A DNA stretch of 64,000 bases from Ianthella basta (lineage: Eukaryota > Porifera > Demospongiae > Verongiida > Ianthellidae): positions 1,824,001-1,888,000 of the forward strand of contig OZ025884.1 of NCBI GenBank assembly GCA_964019415.1, in the 5' to 3' direction. Every line of letters begins with the position of its first letter. The first letter of the stretch is position 1. The position numbers and the translations under genes were made by a program. Positions 12,874 through 58,346 of the stretch are shown here, in pieces. The notes below the pieces were generated by a model. That model searched no databases. It was not told the origin of the DNA and saw only the letters and a list, made by a program, of their open reading frames with translations.

Positions 12874-15800
12874 TCAATTGAAAATTGAAAACTTGTCACT
12901 GACTTTGACAGTTAGTGCAGTGTTTGTGCACAGTGTTCGTCTCACTGATTTCACTAACTCCTTCGGTACCAGTGCCAGTTCCACTTCTGTGAGTAGTGGG
13001 TTCTTACTGAACCCAGCAGCCAGGGCTCTGCTAGCTCTGGCATTGTACACATCCACCTTCACCTTGACTACTTGAGCACAACTGGCTTTCTCCTCCAGCC
13101 GTGCAAAGTACTTTTCCTTCATCTCCATGAACCCCCACTGTAGGTACAAAACACAACACAGGGGTATAGTGAGGTGACACCTTACACCTTACCTCACTCT
13201 TGATGGTGTCCTAGTCAGTTAGCACAAGGTACATGCTAACACAAAGACACCCTTAGAAGCTAACCAAGCCTAACTTATAGATTAGCTATGCAAACGTTGC
13301 ACCACTTGTGAACTGAGCTAAACCACACAGCCTCCTGAGAGCTACTGTTCTGCCAGAATACCACCTTTCCAATAGTACATAGTCTATAGTCAGTGTATAA
13401 AATCCACATACACGCCAGTGCCGTGGTATAGCTAATACATAACGTATTTGATTCGGTAGAGGCTCATAGCTGCGATTGTAGATTACACTGTAAGCAGTTG
13501 ACAAAGGCTCTCGAGCCGAAACGTCCTGCGACCCTCCTTTCTTCAAGCTGCAGTATTGCTCATCTAAGTATTTGCTAAACATAACATATTTGACACACAC
13601 ATGGAGACATAGTACAGTGATTATGTACTACATCTCCATGTGTGTGTGTCAAATAGTTAACTAACTAGCACTGATGCATAGCAACTAAATAGGTGTACAC
13701 TGTACATACCCAGTATGGGCGATCCACTGTGACAATGTCCAGGGGGGAGGCTCTGTGTGACAGTGACTGCAGCACTGGAAGAAGGTCGAGTCCATGGATG
13801 TGAAGTGTCCTCAACTGTGGCATGGTCCGGACACAAATAGCCACAATAAAAGATGCCTCACCACTGTCTGATGTATCTAAGGTAGAGAAACAGAACAATC
13901 ATTGAGATCTGCATGACAGTGCACACAAGGTGACCTTGAGGGGCTTCACAAACAGCAAGGACTGCTACACATTCATTTACACTTGACACGTGTACACCAC
14001 TCCATTGAACTCCACTTACAGTACTGTTTGGGTTGGTTGTCCCGACCGGATGGTTGCAATCGGTTATCGGTTATCACTTATCAACCTGGTGACGTCATTC
14101 TGCGTGACTTTTAGTATACCCAATTCTATTGGCGGACAGTGTACAGGAGATTCAGGATACGTGGCGAAGGCGGGCAACCTGAATCACCGACTGGTCGTGA
14201 TTTGACAGTTTTCTCAGCGGTCTGGAACGCAGGTTACAGAAAATCGGTGCACGCGATCGGTACGAGTCTGTTTAGCCTCCGCGCTGTCTGTTCACTTATC
14301 GAGAAGGCGTTTTCCTCTTGGTACAGAAACGTCCCCACCATTCTTAGCCTTAAATCGTCCAAATACACTTTGTTCCAGTCTTCCTCATTCCAAATGTCAC
14401 TGCTTCAGCTAGACTTGTAGTCGCCATAATGACGTCACCCGGTTGTAAATTGATAACCGATAACCGATTGCATATATCCGGTCGGGACAACCAACCCAAA
14501 AAGTTCTGTAGTAGAATGGGGTGATTAGACATTGCTTTGACAAACACTCCATGAATTGCCTCAACATCAAACTGTTGCTAAGTGACAGTGGTTGCTAAGT
14601 GACAGCTGCAAAACTACTACAGACCATGTCCCCAAATGAGCAACATAGCAAACACTGATTATACACAACCAAAACACACTTTGAGGGTGTAAGGGTGGCA
14701 AGGGGAGGGGCAGTGCTTCCAATGTATGTGCATGTATGGGCCCAACCCATACATGTACATACCCCTATGTGGTATAGTATAGTTAGAGGCATGTAGTGAT
14801 GGGCTAACCTCTAACAACAAGATCTGTTATAGAACGGTTGTCTTTAACTCCACTTAGTACAGGGTGGAGTAGGGTTCTGTAACCACACAGCCTAAGTCTC
14901 TTCAGTTGGCATTGGGCAACCTTCTTCTCCATCACACTGCAGTCACCCTGCACACATAACATACAGTGAAAACAGTAAGAGAACAGATGGAGCATTCATA
15001 CGTACACTCGGGAAGTCAAACAGAGCTATAGGTCTAGCATGGTCACTGATAAACGTCCATGATGTAATGCGATGCATCTCAAACTGGTTCACACATTTCA
15101 CCTTAGAGTGGAAGTAAAACGGCACATCTTATGCACTCAAACAACTCAAGTGTAGAGAGTAGCAGCATAAATAAGAGGAAGCCACACAGTGGATTAATGA
15201 AAACTGGTCCTTCAGAGTCCACACCACATAACAATATATACCAGGTGAACATGCACTACTTACATTATTAACCCACAAGAGATGAAGATCTAACTCCTCC
15301 AACGGTCTGTGGTCAAAGACCTCAGCCAGTGCCTCTAAAGCGCAGCGTTCCAGCCATATGTGTATCAGTGTCAACCTCTTCAGTGACCCAGCAGCCTTAC
15401 GTAGTGCTATGGCATCTACGTCAATAGGGGAAGGGGAACAAGGGAGAATGGAAGGACACAATAGAGACACATCTGACAGCTACACAAAGGGATACAGATC
15501 CATGTAGTAACAGTTGCCATGAGCAGCAGGTGATCATACAGTCACTTTGTAGTGTGCGTATGTACATCACTATAGCAACTGTATGATCACCATTGCCCAT
15601 GGGAACAGGCGGGAAATAAACTAATACTGTAGAGTAAGTGCCCATGTCTTACTCATTGACAGCATATGTTGCCATGGCAATTGTACAATAATTGGGTGAT
15701 TATACATTAAACACTGCATAATTGCTTGCTGCATACGGCAACAGATTTTACACAATGCAAATCACCATAGTGATTGTACAGTATATATGTAGTTAACAAT

Positions 15801-56500: not shown

Positions 56501-58346
56501 GGTATACATCTCGTCTAACTAGGTCAGTTACACGAGTATGCACACATACCACAGATGACGTTTCTGTATATTAAAACACACATTAAACTTGAAAGTGCAA
56601 TAATTTCACTGATTAAGACATCTGTTTAGTCTCCGAATATCTGATTGTCTTAAACTGACTTGGCTAGTGAGTTTGGCAGAACAAAATGACATGACTCTAT
56701 ACCCATCCAGTGGCACTCATTAACTGCCAACAATGTTATATACAGAAGTGTGAAAGAATGGAGCAAATTGTGTTCACACATGTGTACACCCACACACTAA
56801 CACCATAGGTCTATGCTTACACACAACACATGCAAACTTGCACTACACTGGATGAGGTGCGTGTACAGGTGATTGAGAGGCTTTGCACATTTCATTCCCT
56901 ACAAACACACATTATACTACAGTACTACCAGTAGCCACACAACAATGTGGAGTGCCAACCAACTCACTGTATTAGTCCCAGTGGTGACCACTGCAGGTGG
57001 ACTGGGGGTGGGATCTGTGCACAAAGGAGCAACACGGGTAGAGTCAGGTGGAGCTCACCACTATGCACTACACTAGTCGCTTGTCATGATTCTGCAATAA
57101 TAGTCACAAGGCGCACATACATATGTTGGGTGCAGCAGTTGGTGTGAATCCTTTCACTGACACTGATCTGTTGCACACATAAACCGACTGTGTTACTTTC
57201 CTCACAGCAGCTATTGTTGGGCTCACTGACATTAGTACATTGGCTTACTGGCCATAAATAATTGGCTATCAGAACATCGGCTAAAATCCCTTATCAGTGC
57301 AACACTAGCTTAAGCATAGCTTCTGGACTTTCTATTACAAGATATCCACCAGACGTTTGAAATTTCAGTAAATGATCAAAGTAACACCTTCAACAAACTC
57401 TTCACATAGACTGTTGTCAGTTTAGCCTCACCAGCTAACACATGTCTCTCATCAATGACACCAATGACAGGAGTAAGTGTTTGTCACATGCAGTGTCCCA
57501 CTATCACACTGTGTAGCCAAATATGCAGTGTGTTATATACTGACCATCTGGCACAGTAATAGTGAACCTAGTGTTCTGCCTACCCTCAACTATGCACAGA
57601 CTGTCTTTCTCTCAACTCAACCTCCAATAATGCAATATGCCATATAAGGAGCTGTTATTATTAGTAACAACTTCACAAGCTACTGTCTCATTTCACACAT
57701 ACAGATGCAAAAGCATGTAGATCCCTCCAAGGTGTGTAGCTCACACACACGGCTACAGAGTGGGTGATTAATATGTGCTCACTCACACGCAACACCTACC
57801 TTGGTCTAGTCTTTGCTTCATCTCCAGGCCCAAAGCATTCATCTTTTGGTTGCCTTTGTAACCAATGAGAATGTTGCAGAGTGTCAATACGGCCTCTTTG
57901 GTGCACTTGTTTTTGAGGCAATTGTGCAGATCTTGGTTCTTCTGTCTCCTACTATCAATCTTTCTGATTCTCGTCTGATCACCATTGCTAATAATATTTT
58001 GATGCTCAAGATCGAAAATGATTTCATCTGCATCCACATCGTCAATGAAACGCTGCCAGAAGTCATCAAGGACTTGTTTAGCTGCACATATGTGGAAAGG
58101 GAAGTGACTAACTTCAGAATAGCTGTGGTAGCTACACAAAACTAACAAAACTGTCAACTGAGTGTGGAGTGAGGCAATTGTAATTTCAACCAACCCTGGC
58201 GTGTGTTAGCTTCTGGAGTGGCTAGTGGCTGCGGTTCATGGACATCTTGTGGGAGTGGGTGAACTCTGTGCGATTCATCCTTAGTTGCACTCCCTTCCTT
58301 CTTACGAATCTTGCTAGGGGGTCCGTCCATTGGTGTGTGAACACAG
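47510..58346 (-). CDS. NLR3: CARD-NACHT-LRR receptor, apparently intact
   Basis: Exons: 58330-58195 (start ATG at 58330, MDGPPSKIRKK; acceptor at 58347), 58081-57800 (CARD), 56563-56550 (14-nt micro-exon), 56119-54400 (NACHT), LRR exons 53702-53557, 53248-53110, 52658-52492, and a last exon at 47764-47510. The sum is 2859 nt, or 952 aa. The NACHT has GQPGTGKTT (about 55830), VLIILDGADEV (about 55580) and FIVSTRPG (about 55470). LRR strands differ from NLR1 and NLR2 (LTLWSDHILLLP, LRTLHIVERNPLSVL). A second, truncated last exon at 48932-48729 lies closer and would give a 935-aa form ending KEYKFYTAGAV. The probable role is a cytosolic immune sensor, by architecture. The last intron has been enlarged by a tandem duplication and two transposons. 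Upstream leader ends at 58690. Confidence 0.85.
48065..48450. mobile_element. 386 bp hAT-type MITE in the NLR3 last intron
   Basis: The ends TAGGGGTCGAACGAATA and TAAGGGTCGAACGAATA (as reverse complement) are 17-bp inverted repeats with one mismatch. The target duplication AAATATAC (48057-48064, 48451-48458) is exact. The empty site GCAAATATACCTACAC is present at about 49225 in the neighbouring duplicate. 8-bp duplication indicates hAT. It carries no transposase. Confidence 0.92.
48729..48932 (-). CDS. duplicated, truncated alternative last LRR exon of NLR3
   Basis: The acceptor TGTACCTACAG is followed by GAGGAGTTGAGTGAAGAGG, as in the distal exon at 47764-47510. The reading (EELSEEDWAQLEDAASCAQV to GQVPKE) then runs into YKFYTAGAV and a stop. 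The break is at a short palindromic join (TTTTACACTGCGCCAGCAGT) with the duplicated intron. It is in phase 0 with the third LRR exon, so it could be used as an alternative end. Whether it is spliced is unknown. Confidence 0.6.
   Translation of the reverse strand, partial: EELSEEDWAQLEDAASCAQVVKVKVDVKYSARGSRVLAAGFSKNPLLTEVELGQVPKEYKFYTAGAV
49806..50159 (+). other. ORF in the left arm of the fold-back element (mirror on minus 51316-50978)
   Basis: Both arms begin at ATGGCGGAC and read MADNSYANKSHWRVLLPRKV, then NGYIDNCLEVVCAEMLLRMK and RSFLAQKPRERHRTT; the arms diverge near the end (SSYL versus SFFL). The frame is kept in both arms despite substitutions. It looks like the first exon of an element- or host-derived protein, or merely a YY1-containing promoter with a short frame. 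I do not recognise a family. Confidence 0.4.
50310..50370. repeat. (TG)n microsatellite in the fold-back centre
   Basis: Near-perfect TG array with TGCCACTGTGTG interruptions after it. CA arrays at 50640-50820 are its inverted counterpart. Confidence 0.9.

Follow-up and report, generated by a model that had tools for sequence, protein, structure and literature searches.

LRR strand positions with excess replacement divergence in an animal array of CARD-NACHT-LRR-type genes

The window analysed here, a stretch of 64,000 nucleotides from an animal genome of 209 Mb, holds three related gene copies (A, B and C), and it raises the question of why their LRR beta strands should differ where introns and LRR framework are alike. 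The first-pass annotation had quoted nine peptides as lying at equivalent positions in three NLR paralogs. Each of the nine was found once, on the minus strand (copy A, 13776-13814, 14861-14896 and 15264-15293; copy B, 36377-36415, 36979-37017 and 37376-37405; copy C, 52558-52596, 53162-53197 and 53557-53586), and they do occupy the same places in homologous exons with conserved splice sites. The parts of the three copies are as follows.

12874..13137, minus strand: copy A LRR exon e6, the last, with strands R9-R11 and the stop
13710..13876, minus strand: copy A LRR exon e5 (strands R7, R8), from splice anchors
14809..14947, minus strand: copy A LRR exon e3 (strands R5, R6), from splice anchors
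15264..15415, minus strand: copy A LRR exon e2 (strands R3, R4), from splice anchors and frame
16113..17829, minus strand: copy A NACHT exon, whose end encodes LRR strands R1-R2; the frame is open, with Pfam NACHT at E=9.5e-25 and a donor at 16113; its upper limit marks where the match starts and is no mapped acceptor
19619..19918, minus strand: copy A putative CARD-like exon, lying upstream of NACHT; basis, a fold model and a sub-threshold Pfam CARD match (E=0.051)
34114..34389, minus strand: copy B last LRR exon e6
36311..36477, minus strand: copy B LRR exon e5
36927..37068, minus strand: copy B LRR exon e3
37376..37518, minus strand: copy B LRR exon e2
37772..41167, no strand: copy B transposon, with terminal inverted repeats, 20-nt tandem arrays and an rva_4 integrase ORF (39299-40522, minus)
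47510..47764, minus strand: copy C last LRR exon, second copy, full length
48729..48932, minus strand: copy C last LRR exon, first copy, reading frame truncated
52492..52658, minus strand: copy C LRR exon e5
53110..53248, minus strand: copy C LRR exon e3
53557..53702, minus strand: copy C LRR exon e2
54400..56119, minus strand: copy C NACHT exon, including strands R1-R2; Pfam NACHT E=4.8e-24; its upper limit marks where the match starts
57786..58085, minus strand: copy C putative CARD-like exon, sharing 87% identity with its copy A counterpart

Copies A and C carry NACHT, and the description of three NLR paralogs holds for these two. In copy B the NACHT exon is absent, and a 3.4-kb transposon occupies the place of copy C's CARD-like and NACHT exons; copy B is therefore not a whole NLR. 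The locus C17:1461094 was considered as a second NACHT-less copy and ruled out, its NACHT stretch being present and frameshifted. Between e3 and e5, a count of open-frame exons would include one further candidate, which is most likely intron: its phase does not match, it contains in-frame stops in L008, L012, L015 and L030 (after indels also in L005 and L006), it is unrecognisable in L016 and L019, and its body is not variable.

The NACHT exons of copies A and C match Pfam PF05729 above cut-off, at the E values listed, and their PDB matches include NLRP3; an AlphaFold model of this exon from a 29-paralog alignment reached pLDDT 43 and was discarded. For the CARD-like exon, models of copies A and C predict a six-helix bundle (pLDDT 82.5) that is nearest to the Apaf-1 CARD (TM 0.71-0.78). 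The best Foldseek E was 0.12, with 0 of 80 matches at E 0.001, and Pfam gave no CARD match in two other copies besides the sub-threshold one in copy A. The LRRs are predicted from LxxLxLxx motifs spaced 24-30 residues apart; four proteins contain chains of 8-11 such motifs, and for each of these proteins 0 of 2000 shuffles gave an equal chain (L024, for example, has 11 motifs). Pfam and NCBIfam did not detect LRR in the predicted proteins; phmmer gave a best E of 0.054, and all profile matches were sub-threshold (best E 0.045), some being to what we take to be LRR proteins, such as RanGAP1. A plant-type NLR is not indicated, the best Pfam match being NACHT, NB-ARC not being among the matches listed, and the N-terminal exon being CARD-like.

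The claim that introns are nearly identical stands for the B-C pair, whose introns 2 and 3 differ at 26/704 sites (3.7%), and for intron 1 in the A-C pair (19/671, 2.8%); it fails for intron 2 of A (7.4% from C, 9.6% from B). At motif positions 5 and 7-10, replacement divergence is 0.33 (B-C), 0.42 (A-C) and 0.37 (A-B), which exceeds intron divergence in every comparison (Fisher p 5e-13, 4e-23 and 2e-9, respectively, the intron carrying A's insertion being excluded from tests with copy A). It likewise exceeds synonymous divergence at other codons (p 9e-4, 4e-7 and 5e-7, in the same order); synonymous counts in any single pair are small, for B-C 1.0/17.8 in the variable class and 6.0/24.8 in the framework class.

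The pattern in copies A-C is genuine and general. Exon e2 has at least 94 matches; we modelled 31 paralogs from the genome and aligned five LRR-coding segments comprising 11 LxxLxLxx strands, assigning motif positions visually along the LxxLxLxx framework. Among 14 close pairs that share no gene and include 28 of the 31 genes (L006, L019 and L022 are unpaired), pN at the variable positions (5 and 7-10) is 491.0/1533.3 = 0.320, pS outside them is 0.081, and introns differ at 424/13962 = 0.030, a figure that is lowered because the pairs were picked for close introns. The median intron distance over all pairs is 0.064, and one block of intron 3 reaches 0.07-0.12. Introns as divergent as exons had been named in advance as an outcome that would count against selection; instead, intron divergence is about one-tenth of the variable-class replacement divergence. 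The interleaved framework is almost unchanged, as had been claimed (pN 0.046), and purifying selection acts on the NACHT part (pN/pS 0.42 in 13 pairs). The near-identical paralogs L003 and L004 are distinguished mainly by a single strand across the exons that were compared.

These values bear on whether the copies might simply be dying, with exposed residues drifting under relaxed constraint. Several observations would suit such a decay: copy B is without CARD-like and NACHT exons, e5 is frameshifted in L018 and L019, a stop interrupts the NACHT exon of L030, the e2 donor is missing in L022, L059 carries a frameshift, and the remaining LRR codons are only weakly constrained. Replacement at roughly ten times the intron value nevertheless refutes it as sole cause, because drift cannot surpass neutral divergence. 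Moreover, framework and NACHT remain constrained, and reading frames are open in 30/30 e1, 30/30 e2, 31/31 e3 and 29/31 e5 sequences recovered; decay is a most unlikely explanation.

Variability is also position-specific when measured as entropy, with means of 0.19, 0.42, 0.32, 0.13, 1.31, 0.43, 1.95, 1.55, 2.03 and 1.75 bits at motif positions 1-10. Changes had been placed at the x positions of the strands; positions 5 and 7-11 do vary, whereas x2 and x3 are conserved. Columns of at least 1.5 bits number 46 of 286 in the LRR (including 31 of the 54 variable positions) and 26 of 523 in NACHT. Tryptophan, tyrosine and phenylalanine make up 16.1% of residues in such LRR columns versus 3.4% in other LRR columns. 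Plant hvNLRs (RPP13, RPP1) are described as carrying at least 10 positions whose entropy reaches 1.5 bits, most of them in the LRR (PMC8226289), and the present set falls within that definition when scored, as here, on paralogs of one genome and not on alleles.

Rates were estimated with a home-made codon model, in which kappa was fixed and the branch scale lay at the lowest value tried in four of five segments. Pooled beta/alpha under this model is 3.31 (2.50-4.40) for variable codons, 3.08 for the loop, 1.16 for the rest and 0.70 for the framework. By segment, the variable class gives 2.5, 9.2, 3.4, 6.7 and 1.4, so that diversifying selection, as proposed, is found in four of five segments (2dlnL 12.7, 48.4, 11.4 and 47.5) and dN/dS at or below about 1, the other outcome named as adverse, did not occur there; in the last exon the class is not significant (omega 1.36, 2dlnL 0.87). 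A posterior P(beta>alpha) above 0.95 was obtained for 26/54 variable, 7/22 loop, 7/155 other and 0/55 framework codons, and single-site LRT values above 3.84 with beta>alpha for 15, 7, 5 and 0, respectively; 2 of the 54 variable sites test as purifying. Rows excluded were e1 of copy B (absent), e5 of L018 and L019 (frame) and e2 of L022 (donor not found). The last exon is absent from, or escaped detection in, L005, L019, L025 and L030, and the truncated last exon of L014 was dropped; the spliced set (n = 22) is also without L007 and L014, besides the genes with a missing exon.

Silent sites speak to a different possibility, namely that the strand codons are a hotspot of targeted or local hypermutation and acquire their pattern without selection. 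Synonymous change at variable codons is indeed about twice background (pS 0.18 in 14 pairs; 0.14-0.29 at positions 7-10, with the maximum at position 10; fourfold divergence 0.146 over 13 columns). Framework codons of e2 in the minus-strand group are also high at fourfold sites (0.33, 265 comparisons), and the B-C framework pS given above points the same way. Over all segments, however, framework and remaining codons have the same synonymous rate (p = 0.90), and fourfold divergence one to two codons from a variable codon is 0.061, inside the range found further off (0.049-0.069); silent divergence showed no trend with distance from the variable codons (p = 0.18; L019 and L022 were left out of these profiles). 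In strands R2-R4, variability alternates, skipping every second residue, and replacement exceeds synonymous change inside the variable class; we therefore consider hypermutation very unlikely.

Exchange between paralogs is evident from the PHI test (p = 0.001) and from a tract of about 75-120 bp, containing one variable strand, that was exchanged between two paralogs. Recombination tests were run without L001, L018, L019 and L022. A run-of-identity test placed 10 of 351 pairs past the 95% limit and was counted as weak because introns evolve more slowly than exons. Gene conversion of the framework, as earlier suggested, is thus supported, although conversion does not homogenise the framework alone, a variable strand having also moved between genes. 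It might be argued that conversion suffices: the variable residues would be old differences that survived as recent conversion evened out introns and framework, with no faster replacement. This would fit the detected recombination, the raised synonymous change at variable codons, and the silent divergence in nearly the same pairs, which is lower in LRR exons (0.08) and introns (0.03) than in the NACHT part (0.18). It would not account for replacement in excess of synonymous change inside the variable class, and it would still need selection against homogenisation at exactly those sites. We regard it as an improbable account, if less so than hypermutation.

The position-specific pattern is repeated in a second NLR array of the same genome, which belongs to a different family; there, excluding one repeat of L061, pN is 0.235 at variable, 0.019 at framework and 0.041 at other positions, and intron divergence is 0.031.

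In our judgement these data are very probably explained by an array of animal NLR genes, each built from a CARD-like exon, NACHT and LRR, on which selection and conversion both act. Under this explanation, diversifying selection would act on the C-terminal half of each beta strand and the loop after it, gene conversion between paralogs would homogenise introns and LRR framework, and conversion would sometimes pass a variable strand to another gene. The variable residues may form a single ligand-contacting surface on the curved LRR solenoid, the ligands being presumably microbial or other non-self molecules, and the ligand-bound protein would signal via its CARD-like domain. The array would then serve in immunity as a repertoire of direct-binding intracellular sensors encoded in the germline. 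A bolder version, which we offer tentatively and think rather less likely than not to hold in full, is that the genome encodes dozens to hundreds of direct-binding NLRs in several separate arrays, with single LRR strands acting as specificity cassettes swapped via short conversion tracts and fragments like copy B perhaps serving as donors.

To our knowledge, the recognition surface of large invertebrate NLR arrays has not been established. In the present case the sequence alone points to candidate recognition residues in about 40-46 columns, depending on which of two measures is used, and direct binding therefore becomes testable.

Among sponges, the Amphimedon NLRs form a repertoire of comparable kind. 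Fungal NWD-type and other repeat-bearing NLRs combine hypervariable repeat positions with concerted evolution, as here, but with other repeat types and inside one gene, whereas the present variation involves irregular LRRs across an array. The survey of Dysidea avara and ten other sponge genomes describes NACHT-LRR families that have expanded greatly and separately in each species, in some cases with CARD, and near-identical neighbours like those found here (PMC12909245); as described, it gives counts, architectures and trees. Zebrafish NLR-B30.2 genes offer a further likeness, comprising hundreds of animal NLRs with domain-dependent gene conversion and a putative recognition surface that is positively selected (PMC4852459). 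In zebrafish, however, selection falls on the C-terminal B30.2 domain, and a role of the LRRs is argued against (PMC4852459), whereas here it falls on the LRR strands, and the present copies stop after the LRR in the stretch read. Positive selection has likewise been reported for bird (PMC8105094) and carnivore (PMC9739989) NLRs, apparently among species and in small gene sets, whereas here it acts inside a large paralog array.

The closest parallel lies in plants. In the hvNLR RPP13, repeat positions 7-10 are reported as the most variable, as in the present array, and in plants a hypervariable LRR surface is the mark of NLRs with direct binding of pathogen molecules (PMC8226289). Those hvNLRs have CC or TIR N-termini and were compared across many accessions (PMC8226289), whereas the present genes are animal, pair NACHT with a CARD-like domain and were compared as paralogs of one genome. 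The pattern is thus already known from plant NLRs and looks new in an animal CARD-NACHT-LRR family, suggesting arrays of near-copied CARD-NACHT-LRR-type genes that form a germline repertoire diversified like plant resistance genes. Plant and animal NLRs are reported to have independent origins (PMC3782705), and these results suggest that animals and plants converged on an LRR strand surface diversified by selection together with exchange between paralogs.

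Each of the nine peptides cited in the first-pass annotation was found once, always on the minus strand, and they occupy homologous sites in three tandem units of the window, which hold the gene copies designated A, B and C. The contrast drawn there between variable LRR residues and nearly identical introns is borne out for copies B and C, in which 22 of 66.2 non-synonymous sites at variable positions have changed (0.33), versus 26 of 704 intron sites (0.037; Fisher p 5e-13). The window, C17:1824001-1888000, lies in a genome that also yields matches to Wnt, a gene family not known outside animals. 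Comparison of the window with itself gave repeat spacings of ~20.9, 13.5 and 18.1 kb, and the following features accompany the NLR copies.

4385-6745, minus: open frame of 786 codons that includes the P-loop-like motif GPPEAGKT and matches nothing in Pfam at E 0.001
8930-9229, minus: CARD-like exon, with no NACHT exon close by within the window
14018-14509: insertion with inverted ends, intron 3 of copy A
21525-23503, minus: Arf-like GTPase gene in pieces, one of which is above the cut-off for Pfam Arf
37772-41167: 3.4-kb transposon in copy B, with 406-nt inverted repeats composed mostly of 20-nt tandem units
38274-38981, plus: second ORF of this transposon
39299-40522, minus: rva_4 integrase ORF of this transposon

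Every segment is present in copies A and C, the former carrying the ~490-bp insertion, probably a small DNA transposon, and the latter two copies of the last exon, one truncated. Copy B is a fragment: its LRR exons are intact, and the 5.2 kb bearing the CARD-like and NACHT exons in copy C is missing, with the 3.4-kb transposon in its place. Since no target-site duplication was seen at this element, the two exons may have been lost through recombination between two insertions. We speculate that the strands of copy B may still be usable in exchange between paralogs. The Arf-like pieces lie within the repeat units, adjoining the NLR genes, with which the Arf-like gene may have been co-duplicated; stretches homologous to these pieces occur around 41.2-44.0 kb and 59.2-62.1 kb of the window.

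Large NLR arrays are known from invertebrates other than sponges. In sponges, too, such arrays have been reported (PMC12909245, in excerpt). Six-frame searches of the 209-Mb genome (96 contigs) with exons of the window, whose NACHT exon matches Pfam NACHT, returned at least 76 matches to that exon (76 of 76 scored, from 449 candidates), at least 94 to LRR exon e2 (94 of 94) and at least 101 to LRR exon e5 (101 of 126); for any NACHT there were at least 102 (all scored; 469 candidates). These lower bounds include distant members. Further groups of NACHT matches lie on contigs C5, C8, C4, C10 and C18, many outscoring the window's family against Pfam NACHT. Copy B and the 30 best among those NACHT loci that had DNA downstream formed a set of 31 genes, most of which repeat the splice anchors of the window copies. 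Their LRR-coding segments are e1 (the end of the NACHT exon, strands R1-R2), e2 (R3-R4), e3 (R5-R6), e5 (R7-R8) and e6 (R9-R11), with intron phases 1, 0, 1, 0 consistent among copies with open frames. Between e3 and e5 lies a further candidate exon, which was treated as intron on account of its phase misfit, stops in several paralogs and invariable body.

Neither curated LRR models nor a phmmer search of solved structures gave a significant match to the repeat region, and a profile search of solved structures gave only sub-threshold matches (best E 0.045), some of which we take to be LRR proteins. It is the motif pattern that points to an LRR: locus L024 has 11 LxxLxLxx motifs spaced by 28, 25, 25, 27, 26, 28, 24, 30, 27 and 25 residues, and the longest chains in four proteins tested (11, 8, 10 and 9 motifs) were each equalled in none of 2000 shuffles. 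The exon upstream of NACHT is predicted to form a six-helix bundle (pLDDT 82.5) resembling the Apaf-1 CARD (TM 0.71-0.78, best E 0.12); Pfam CARD was below cut-off, and in only one of the three copies, the stretches searched being of unequal length.

Variation was located using the numbering L1 x2 x3 L4 x5 L6 x7 x8 x9 x10, which was set by eye from the framework on alignments already seen. Mean entropy at positions 1-6 is 0.19, 0.42, 0.32, 0.13, 1.31 and 0.43 bits, and at positions 7-12 is 1.95, 1.55, 2.03, 1.75, 1.26 and 0.89 bits, compared with 0.41 bits outside motifs (155 columns). Columns of at least 1.5 bits number 46 of 286 in the LRR versus 26 of 523 in the NACHT part, and aromatic residues make up 16.1% of letters in variable LRR columns versus 3.4% in others. 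In strands R2, R3 and R4 entropy alternates between high and low across positions 5 to 9, as would be expected if alternate side chains face outward.

Divergence by class of position in 31 genes: variable (positions 5, 7-10), framework (interleaved conserved positions), loop (after the strand) and rest (outside motifs). Fields: pN, pS over all 465 pairs; pN, pS over 14 disjoint pairs; columns of at least 1.5 bits; diversifying sites (posterior >0.95); purifying sites; pooled beta/alpha.
Variable: 0.355, 0.230; 0.320, 0.181; 31/54; 26/54; 2; 3.31 (2.50-4.40)
Framework: 0.059, 0.105; 0.046, 0.084; 1/55; 0/55; 5; 0.70 (0.47-1.05)
Loop: 0.226, 0.130; 0.183, 0.130; 7/22; 7/22; 1; 3.08 (1.57-5.65)
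Rest: 0.071, 0.097; 0.059, 0.075; 7/155; 7/155; 7; 1.16 (0.90-1.44)

The 14 pairs have no gene in common and cover 28 of the 31 genes; they were selected for close introns, which biases their intron divergence (0.030) downward relative to the all-pairs median of 0.064. For the NACHT part of 13 of them, pN is 0.076 and pS 0.180. Silent sites along the NACHT exons present a mosaic picture, with fourfold divergence in some 60-codon bins 2-5x that of the same group's LRR exons and in others equal to it. Within intron 3, a block ~160-280 nt past e3 diverges by 0.07-0.12 versus 0.02-0.04 on either side.

The codon model was a home-made FUBAR-like grid with one tree per segment and kappa fixed at 2.5, its branch scale settling at the lowest value tried in four of five segments. 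The variable-class ratios were 2.5, 9.2, 3.4 and 6.7 in e1, e2, e3 and e5, all significant, and 1.4 in e6, which was not significant.

Drift as the sole cause is excluded, because replacement exceeds the neutral rate. If instead mutation were concentrated in the strands, the framework codons between variable ones would be expected to show raised silent change as well. Yet framework and rest have equal synonymous rates (p = 0.90, segments pooled), and fourfold divergence at one to two codons from a variable codon, 0.061, falls within the range of the values further away (0.068, 0.069 and 0.049). The interleaved silent sites thus argue against hypermutation, with two exceptions: the e2 framework is high in the minus-strand group (0.33; 265 comparisons), as is framework pS in the B-C pair (6.0/24.8). 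At variable codons themselves fourfold divergence is raised (0.146; 13 columns), which fits repeated replacement back to the same residue via another codon, or older divergence.

Evidence of exchange between paralogs came from the PHI test, which gave p = 0.001 from e2 to e5 (27 genes, 145 informative sites) and, by single segment, 0.41 for e2, 0.029 for intron 2, 0.10 for e3, 0.82 for intron 3 and 0.043 for e5. The clearest case involves loci L003 and L004, separated by 91 kb. Over alignment columns 1-1560 of the NACHT exon they differ at 10 sites, and across e2-e6 at 1 of 708. Columns 1567-1664, which contain strand R1, hold 15 differing sites and a 6-nt gap; there a third locus, L002, matches L004 at 15 of 15 sites and in the gap. 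L002 and L004 show zero differences across columns 1559-1704 and 3-23 per ~120-column block elsewhere in the exon. Judged from these alignments, a tract of ~75-120 bp (gap columns excluded) bearing one variable strand has been exchanged between paralogs. Loci L007 and L021 are alike in e3 (0/138) and introns (4/708) and unlike in e1 (26/156), e2 (27/147), e6 (27/222) and also NACHT. The best reading is diversifying selection on the strand surface combined with conversion between paralogs, given replacement above the neutral rate, the PHI result and the strand-sized tract.

A second family, which forms an array on C8 and shares 27% identity with copy A in the NACHT stretch, was sampled at eight loci among many listed; the six LRR segments compared were found in 8, 8, 7, 8, 8 and 5 of the eight. 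Under the same numbering, pN and pS are 0.235 and 0.140 at variable positions, 0.019 and 0.048 in the framework and 0.041 and 0.034 elsewhere, with 0.031 in one intron (7 loci); pN is 0.24-0.33 at positions 7-10 and 0.06 at position 5. The variable-strand pattern is thus common to more than one NLR family, as judged from one locus set of the second.

Among the titles and abstract beginnings listed from the open literature, none describes diversifying selection at the level of sites in the LRR strands of NLR arrays from sponges or other invertebrates. Those listed do include positive selection in NLRs of birds (PMC8105094) and carnivores (PMC9739989). In zebrafish NLRs the excerpted account places selection in B30.2 instead (PMC4852459). 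Among plant NLRs, this signature is characteristic of those that bind directly (PMC8226289, in excerpt); by analogy, the strand surface of the proteins studied here may bind ligands.
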